A stretch of DNA of 38,047 nt from Acidobacteriota bacterium. GTDB taxonomy: Bacteria; Acidobacteriota; Terriglobia; Terriglobales; Acidobacteriaceae. The notes under the pieces were generated by a model. The model searched no databases. It was not told where the DNA came from and saw only the letters and a program-made list of their open reading frames with translations. This document shows, piece by piece, positions 35,818-36,001 of this stretch. The DNA lies in contig JAKAXU010000030.1 in assembly GCA_021816455.1 (NCBI GenBank), forward strand, positions 1 through 38,047, written 5' to 3'. How positions within the stretch are numbered: position 1 is the first letter of the stretch; each line of letters starts with the position of its first letter. Both the position numbers and the translations under genes were made by a program.

Positions 35818-35854
35818 AAAAAACTAGGCCCGAACCGTATTCGGGTCCGGGCCT
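35818..35854 (-). terminator. Leader terminator (attenuator) upstream of metY
   Basis: In the minus-strand transcript an 11-bp stem (arms 35854-35844 and 35836-35826, one G-U pair, seven-base loop) is followed by two bases and six U (35823-35818). This is a textbook intrinsic terminator, lying between the leader peptide and metY with about 55 bases left before the metY start. Its 5' arm is also complementary to an earlier leader segment, which makes termination conditional. Confidence 0.88.
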
Positions 35855-35911
35855 GTTCTGGATTTCGCAATACTGTTTCGACAGCATCAAGCCAGAGGCA
35901 CGGACCCGAAT
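35839..35911 (-). promoter_or_regulatory. Antiterminator pairing of the met leader
   Basis: The transcript segment 35911-35897 (ATTCGGGTCCGTGCC) can pair with 35853-35839 (GGCCCGGACCCGAAT): eleven consecutive pairs, a mismatch, then three more. The second segment is the 5' arm of the terminator, so the two structures exclude each other. The first segment spans codons 18-23 of the leader peptide, right after the Cys/Met codons. A further segment at 35944-35937 (CGGAACCG, codons 7-10) can pair with CGGGTCCG inside the first segment (seven of eight pairs), giving the classical 1:2, 2:3, 3:4 arrangement. Confidence 0.82.
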
Positions 35912-35964
35912 CGCATGCACATGCACATGCAACAGGCGGTTCCGGACTGGCTCATCTTTGTCAT
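35887..35964 (-). CDS. Cys/Met-rich leader peptide of the metYX attenuator
   Basis: A 25-codon open frame, ATG at 35964 and TGA at 35889-35887. Codons 11-17 read Cys-Cys-Met-Cys-Met-Cys-Met; the opening is MTKMSQ and the end RFGSVPLA. Seven rare amino acids in a row directly before an antiterminator segment, and a terminator before metY, match the design of leader peptides such as those of trp, his and leu operons. A ribosome stalled for lack of Cys-tRNA or Met-tRNA would leave the codon 18-23 segment free to form the antiterminator; a ribosome reaching the stop codon would cover it and allow termination. No Shine-Dalgarno is seen, but the upstream promoter would start RNA at or near this ATG, so leaderless translation is likely. 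Confidence 0.85.
35914..35931 (-). repeat. Hexanucleotide repeat (TGCATG)x3 forming the control codons
   Basis: Three tandem TGCATG units encode Cys-Met three times, preceded by a TGT Cys codon. The unit is self-complementary at its core (TGCA), and replication slippage could add or remove Cys-Met pairs without shifting the frame. Confidence 0.9.
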
Positions 35965-35971
35965 CGCAATC

Positions 35972-36001
35972 AGTATGAAGGCTGCGGCGGGATCGCGTCA
36001 A
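35972..36001 (-). promoter_or_regulatory. Candidate promoter of the met leader and metYX operon
   Basis: On the minus strand TTGACG (36001-35996; five of six consensus), an 18-base spacer, and CATACT (35977-35972; four of six). Seven bases separate the -10 from the A of the leader ATG at 35964, placing the transcription start on or within a base or two of that codon. It begins 22 bases beyond the tRNA-Gly CCA end. Confidence 0.6.

Follow-up and report, generated by a model that had tools for sequence, protein, structure and literature searches.

Putative ribosome-mediated attenuation of metY-metX by a leaderless Met/Cys leader peptide in Acidobacteriaceae

The leader of the metY-metX operon in a draft acidobacterial genome (G000; 86.5% complete) is very probably a ribosome-mediated transcription attenuator, in which a short ORF, predicted to be leaderless and carrying Met and Cys as control codons, would act as the sensor. 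The DNA analyzed was a single stretch of 38,047 nt, hereafter the window. Upstream of metY it holds a leader ORF, a cluster of pathway codons that is conserved in relatives, an intrinsic terminator, an exclusive pairing of segments 2 and 3 (2:3) with compensatory change, and a protector helix between segments 1 and 2 (1:2), which together are the sequence hallmarks of this type of control. An earlier note on this DNA had read the region as a Cys/Met attenuator, and that reading is now supported, at the level of sequence, by conservation of the ORF, by the terminators and by the coevolving helices of related genomes.

The leader in the window

The features of the region are given in Table 1. 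The metX start overlaps the metY stop (ATGA), and metX adjoins metY in 16 of the 18 genomes with a metX match; the exceptions are G005 (other contig) and G008 (no metY). MetY forms homocysteine from sulfide and O-acetylhomoserine, as is established for the family.

Table 1. Features of the metY-metX leader region, in window coordinates
Feature	Position	Strand	Basis
metX, homoserine O-acetyltransferase	33280..34443	-	NCBIfam NF001209, 370.6 bits (cut-off 331)
metY, O-acetylhomoserine sulfhydrylase / homocysteine synthase	34440..35762	-	NCBIfam NF006096, 730.5 bits (cut-off 726)
U6 tract of the intrinsic terminator	35818..35823	-	sequence
Segment 4, predicted 3' arm of the terminator	35826..35836	-	folding; double changes among 48 sequences
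Segment 3, predicted 3' strand of the antiterminator, including the terminator 5' arm (35844-35854)	35839..35861	-	folding; coevolution
Predicted small hairpin at the antiterminator tip, beginning at the leader stop codon	35868..35889	-	folding
Leader peptide ORF	35887..35964	-	ORF translation; leaders of relatives
Segment 2 (codons 18-25), predicted 5' strand of the antiterminator	35891..35913	-	folding; coevolution
Control codons 11-17 (Cys Cys Met Cys Met Cys Met)	35914..35934	-	Met/Cys run in 108 loci
Segment 1 (codons 4-10), predicted partner of segment 2 in the ribosome-free state	35937..35953	-	folding; coevolution test
-10 box CATACT, 18 nt from the -35 box and 7 nt 5' of the leader ATG	35972..35977	-	same architecture in relatives
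-35 box TTGACG of the leader promoter	35996..36001	-	same architecture in 90/108 loci

The leader ORF has 25 codons, of which seven in succession specify Cys or Met, as the earlier note had described. No other Cys/Met run of at least seven codons occurs in the six frames of the window, and none arose in 60 mononucleotide shuffles. The run is self-complementary and folds on itself. Over its whole 147 nt the leader has a folding z-score of -5.2.

The terminator stem (AGGCCCGGACC/GGUUCGGGCCU) comprises 11 bp followed by AG and six U; its predicted stability is -21.5 kcal/mol (z = -5.0 against shuffles). The predicted antiterminator joins codons 18-25 to the region containing the 5' arm of the terminator, through 11 bp (AUUCGGGUCCG/CGGACCCGAAU) and then GCC/GGC and UCUGG/CCAGA; with the small hairpin at its tip this structure reaches -40.4 kcal/mol (z = -5.7). 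The 1:2 helix, formed with codons 18-25 and enclosing the control run, is less exceptional at -31.6 kcal/mol (z = -2.95), and 2 of 200 shuffles were equally good. The terminator was thus found where it had been noted, as was the antiterminator pairing of 11 bp plus 3, which extends through the UCUGG/CCAGA pairs to codon 25. Segment 1, placed earlier at codons 7-10, does pair with the region of codons 18-23, but it is longer than proposed and covers codons 4-10.

A promoter that had been absent from the earlier note, TTGACG-18-CATACT-7-ATG, lies immediately 5' of the leader ORF. With 7 nt separating the -10 box from the AUG, the start point of a sigma70 promoter falls at or adjacent to the AUG. 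Judged by this spacing, the leader transcript looks leaderless, with its 5' end at the AUG or a few bases from it. Directly upstream of the promoter is a tRNA-Gly(CCC) gene (36023-36097). By eye, the same tRNA sequence is found 5' of the leader in L002-L007, and among 17 loci scanned a tRNA was detected in L001, L007 and L010 (about 580 nt upstream).

Conservation and coevolution at metY

The upstream DNA of 119 close metY orthologs with 73-100% identity was examined (L001-L022, L031-L127). Among named genomes, the close relatives of the window's metY belong to Acidobacteriaceae/Acidobacteria, including one Granulicella sp. and one Acidobacterium sp.; the close matches in G124, G269, G394, G409 and G420, which are partial or lie at the first bases of a contig, were left out. 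A short ORF with a Met/Cys run lies directly 5' of metY in 108 of the 119, of which 106 were found by script, weak ones such as L069 included, and two (L077, L089) by eye. Eight of the remaining 11 have no leader directly upstream, two (L013, L087) are cut by contig ends and one (L074) is doubtful. In two of the eight (L021, L115) metY stands behind a homoserine dehydrogenase gene, in a hom-metY operon with its own leader 5' of hom: MSFISQNAVLAQGRITTMAMCMHICTFRREELLT, where the identity of hom was confirmed, and MSTRCQIRTIVACRRPAMAMSMHMCTIRPTGAGFQQS, where hom was recognized by resemblance. A recognizable leader was absent in 6 of the 117 loci uncut by contig ends (L075, L084, L098, L107, L110, L111). 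At L151, another named member of the family, the leader is only weak (MNCSTLPIALAMTCPPPC... / MNCSTLPIALAMTCPPPCSGLAGRCGMGRLR), and no Met/Cys leader was seen at seven distant metY homologs with upstream DNA (53-63% identity; L023-L026, L128-L130).

Across the 108 loci the runs contain 383 ATG, 152 TGC and 111 TGT codons, so that both Cys codons are in use. At least two Met codons are present in 106 of the 108 runs, at least two Cys codons in 88, and at least one in 107. The mean content is 3.5 Met and 2.4 Cys, and the commonest run is MAMCMCM, which makes Met at least as important as Cys; the form CCMCMCM(C) is shared by the window and its nearest relatives. In genera g13 and g95 the runs are Met-rich with a single Cys (MYMSMRMPMC, MSMSMRMQMC). 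It had been proposed from the window that Cys and Met are sensed jointly. The codon run on which this was based is kept, but across the family it is Met-dominant, and Met sensing is more certain than Cys sensing. Outside the run the peptide diverges greatly between genera, as judged by eye.

A hairpin with a T-rich tail was detected by script in 107 of 108 loci, a set that includes the doubtful L074 and not L089; in several relatives the T tract is interrupted. The earlier note had named as adverse to its reading related genomes that keep metY and lack the Cys/Met ORF or the paired terminator and antiterminator. What was found instead was the leader in 108 of 119 orthologs, hairpins in 107 of 108, and coevolving helices.

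The promoter is likewise conserved. In 90 of 108 loci a sigma70-type promoter with TTGAC-like and NATACT-like boxes ends 5-12 nt short of the leader ATG; this count is somewhat flattering because the widened pattern was chosen on the same data as were scored: the initial pattern (-10 = [TC]ANNNT only) matched 27 of 106, and NATACT was added after GATACT had been seen. The boxes are 18 nt apart in 65 of the 90 promoters, and the -10 box is 7 nt from the ATG in 57. With the same pattern, 0-2 loci matched when the anchor was moved 60 or 120 nt, and 0.68 in shuffles. At 18 of the 108 leaders a fitting promoter is missing. A motif resembling a Shine-Dalgarno sequence precedes the leader ATG in only 1 of 106 loci. 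Genome-wide searches with the promoter pattern gave little information on other leaders. In the window's genome a leaderless-type promoter was seen 6 nt before the ATG of another small ORF (L215; G000:C31:7384-7421), which is followed by a second small ORF and has a toxin-antitoxin-like look.

Coevolution of the alternative helices was measured by a swap test on 106 loci, in which each segment was paired in turn with its own partner and with partners taken from loci whose terminator arm differed at 5 or more of 12 positions, and the resulting duplexes were compared. The own partner won in a mean fraction of 0.765 for 2:3, 0.88 for 3:4 and 0.81 for 1:2, compared with 0.495 for an upstream and 0.536 for a downstream control segment. 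RNAalifold applied to 48 diverse leaders recovered the terminator, in which 8 of the 10 predicted pairs have changed at both positions. A single global 2:3 structure on alignment A1 was dropped in favor of the swap test and type-wise pairing, because the pairing register differs between two sequence types. Segment 3 is CGGGTCC-like in 63 loci (type A) and CCCACGG-like in 42 (type B), with one locus unassigned, and the matching segment 2 reads GGACCCG and CCGTGGG, respectively. The excess of complete 7/7 pairing over the upstream control is modest in type A (23 of 63 loci vs. 5; mean 6.2 vs. 5.6 of 7) and clear in type B (23 of 42 vs. 0; mean 6.5 vs. 4.8 of 7). Across the loci compared, segments 2, 3 and 4 switch jointly between the two types. 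Shuffles of individual loci were weaker than the pooled tests, giving p ≤ 0.05 for 2:3 in 55 and for 1:2 in 48 of 106 loci.

Beyond the family, Met/Cys leaders occur before metY sporadically in other phyla and rarely in the rest of the phylum. Short ATG ORFs with at least 4 Cys/Met among 8 residues lie upstream of metY at six of 58 scorable loci from named genomes outside the family (L152-L210). Control searches that also counted L151 turned up none in 59 loci on the opposite strand, none in 59 within the gene itself, and one in 52 (L154) at a greater upstream distance. Terminators accompany the ORF at L163, L178, L194 and L202, and none was found by script at L177 and L197. These six and L355, with Met/Cys- or Met-rich ORFs before metY, belong to Calditrichota, Deltaproteobacteria, Gemmatimonadota, a proteobacterium and other Acidobacteriota. 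The ORF at L154, in Candidatus Eremiobacterota (..APMMCSMCRCMQMPTA..), lies about 950-1400 nt upstream of metY, too far to be metY's own. Of 30 acidobacterial loci outside the family taken from the match list, 22 could be judged and one (L355) has a leader; L352 has too little upstream DNA. To call such an attenuator unusual in an acidobacterium, as had been done, understates its near-universal presence at metY in this family and its recurrence before cysD and aspartate kinase in part of the family's genomes. The RNA model R1 gave weak matches outside the family (best G766, E = 9e-6), many of which span the terminator part only, and a search of plasmids for the leader peptide gave no match.

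Leaders at other operons

The family genomes were searched with a covariance model built on the metY leader, and matches at other genes were then read and identified. They include a leader at cobA-cysD (MLSATHKADTCTKHMCMCMCCCRVWVPADSG); one containing MAMCTHACC at a gene of the nitrite/sulfite reductase family (Pfam NIR_SIR; NirA family below cut-off); one with MAMAMCMCCCM at a pair encoding RimK-like and luciferase-like monooxygenase proteins (best NCBIfam match SfnG, below cut-off); one at a DUF3034 gene (CMCCSCACPCDMC); and two at aspartate kinase genes, TMTMTTMAMRIT (L246) and TTTLRTMAMRMRIS (L247, gene assigned by similarity). Two further matches, in G270 (L242, E = 7e-8) and G003:C54 (L244, E = 1e-4), were rejected, since by eye they are gene ends with terminators.

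At cysD, 20 of 45 loci (15 of 30 and 5 of 15) carry a short ORF that is rich in Cys/Met and has a promoter-like or terminator-like neighbor. ORFs alone, within 500 nt, occur in 16 of 30 loci compared with 2 of 30 on the reverse strand, some loci being cut by contig ends. Upstream of aspartate kinase a Thr/Ile/Met/Cys-rich ORF was present in 6 of 30 loci and in 0 of 30 on the reverse strand, again with some loci cut; the Thr content of this set is favored by its own search rule. By the rule used, no leader was found at 25 of 45 cysD and 26 of 32 aspartate kinase loci, and the aspartate kinases of G000 and G007 were among those where none was found. The share Met/(Met+Cys) is 0.61 for the 108 leaders at metY, against 0.18 for the 20 at cysD (near-duplicates L254/L256 and L260/L262 included), a contrast that is not biased by rule toward either residue because both sets were found by Met/Cys density. 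The Cys-rich leaders at cysD and the Thr/Ile/Met leaders at aspartate kinase indicate that the control codons track the pathway, although the match is partial.

On balance it seems probable that Acidobacteriaceae commonly run sulfur and aspartate-family synthesis by leaderless attenuators with pathway codons, Met plus Cys almost throughout at metYX and, in part of the genomes, Cys for sulfate assimilation and Thr/Ile/Met for aspartate kinase. The metYX leader would then be the first Met-sensing leader peptide, with two amino acids read in one ORF, and similar leaders would have arisen or survived before metY in Gemmatimonadota, Calditrichota and Deltaproteobacteria.

A second Cys leader of the window's own genome, MTRSAHIMVCCCLSNIFDGCLF, lies before cysD (L308, G000:C61); its promoter is of the leaderless type, and it has no clear U-tract terminator. 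The Thr/Ile/Met-rich aspartate kinase leaders (L278/L247, L288/L246, L279, L282, L284, L289), most of them with terminators, resemble the thr leader of Escherichia coli, from which they differ in the presence of Met. In L240 (G017:C135) a DUF3034 gene, followed by one for a hexapeptide-repeat protein, has a very Cys-rich leader, LCMCCSCACPCDMC; a Cys-rich leader in this position suggests a sulfur link for DUF3034.

Proposed mechanism, alternatives and known systems

In the proposed mechanism, transcription would begin at the leader AUG or no more than a few bases from it, and the AUG would be used for initiation by a 70S ribosome. With charged Met-tRNA and Cys-tRNA in ample supply the ribosome would reach the stop codon and mask segment 2, so that 3:4 could form and RNA polymerase would halt near 35818. 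If either tRNA were scarce, the ribosome would stall within codons 11-17, over or just past segment 1, leaving segment 2 free to pair with segment 3; the terminator would not form and metYX would be transcribed. If translation failed altogether, 1:2 would form and the operon would be off. Since MetY makes homocysteine from sulfide and O-acetylhomoserine, a joint reading of Met and Cys would reflect the sulfur amino acid pool as a whole. A Met sensor poses a neat problem because Met is also required to initiate the sensor ORF. One ORF would here read two amino acids, and because leaders ranging from Cys-rich to Met-rich occur naturally, the sensing rule can be tested.

It is possible, though we think it rather unlikely, that Met is the only amino acid sensed and that UGC or UGU beside AUG builds a CAUG-rich, self-complementary hairpin of the 1:2 state. 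The control run of the window folds on itself, and part of the Met-Cys alternation could therefore serve RNA folding; Met exceeds Cys across the family, the runs of g13 and g95 hold a single Cys, and a Met leader without Cys stands before metY outside the family (L202). However, nearly every locus retains Cys, most of them at least two, the run reads CCMCMCM(C) in the window and in its nearest relatives, and in the same family Cys-dominated leaders precede cysD, where Cys codons thus appear to be used as sensors. A sensor in the nascent CMCMCM peptide itself, which might bind copper or another metal or become oxidized and so stall the ribosome, has very little probability. Met/Cys-rich motifs do bind Cu(I), but the genes downstream are metYX, cysD, a member of the nitrite/sulfite reductase family and aspartate kinase, the composition tracks the amino acid made, and the Thr/Ile/Met leaders before aspartate kinase are hard to reconcile with metal binding.

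The terminated leader might instead act mainly in trans, as a small leaderless mRNA or sRNA like rnTrpL/peTrpL of Sinorhizobium, with attenuation as a by-product. If the leader is both leaderless and terminated, the RNA released would begin at the AUG and be about 147 nt long, much as rnTrpL is described (PMC7298713). We nevertheless judge a role in trans improbable: the peptide varies greatly between genera outside the run, and a coevolving antiterminator would be useful in cis only. GC-rich DNA commonly contains short ORFs and GC hairpins, but a chance coincidence of the two is regarded as already excluded by the 108 of 119 orthologs, the coevolution and the promoter controls.

The ribosome-mediated attenuators of the trp, his, thr and leu operons are classical. 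They share with the metYX leader an ORF with codons for the product, alternative helices and an intrinsic terminator before a biosynthetic operon; the metYX leader differs in its Met and Cys codons, in being predicted to be leaderless and in its occurrence in Acidobacteriota. Methionine genes are controlled by SAM riboswitches, T-boxes and MetJ, and SAM riboswitches and Met T-boxes bind ligand or tRNA directly through RNA, unlike a leader-peptide sensor. Polycysteine leaderless short ORFs in mycobacteria were reportedly described by Canestrari in 2020. Attenuators of the trp/his/thr/leu type are described for comparison in PMC1262725, and Cys leaders in Actinobacteria in the same paper and in PMC4633059. 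The mycobacterial cys leaders, according to PMC1262725, have no conserved terminator hairpin, and PMC13236596 uses the term translation attenuation. They are leaderless short ORFs with clustered Cys codons before sulfur genes, an arrangement that promoter spacing also predicts for the metYX leader; the metYX leader has a terminator and a coevolving antiterminator, and Met is not named in these accounts for mycobacteria. The uORFC-8-2 motif before cysS of Rhodobacterales (PMC8632094) combines a tandem-Cys uORF with an intrinsic terminator and a proposed ribosome-mediated attenuation; it concerns another gene and phylum, and has two Cys codons with no Met named. The trpL leader (rnTrpL) of Sinorhizobium meliloti (PMC7298713) resembles the metYX leader in an ORF at the transcript 5' end, here predicted, and in transcription attenuation, and differs in its Trp codons. 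The working principle is therefore old, since Cys leaders and a leaderless trpL attenuator had already been described. A literature search that covered few subscription journals found no published leader-peptide attenuator for methionine, and we could not find in print a Met control codon, Met plus Cys with an intrinsic terminator, the phylum or the operon set.

Rfam offered no riboswitch or T-box at the metY leader, in the window or in the 17 loci scanned; the best leader match, Thr_leader (RF00506), scored 24.1 bits, far under the gathering cut-off of 55. SAM-I was not found in the 86.5% complete G000; of 61 relatives, 26 have SAM-I riboswitches. The five that were read (L325-L329; G011, G001, G020, G031, G027) each precede a thrC-like threonine synthase gene, identified above the NCBIfam cut-off in two and by sequence resemblance in three. 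This is an unusual target for SAM-I, and it could steer homoserine between Thr and Met.
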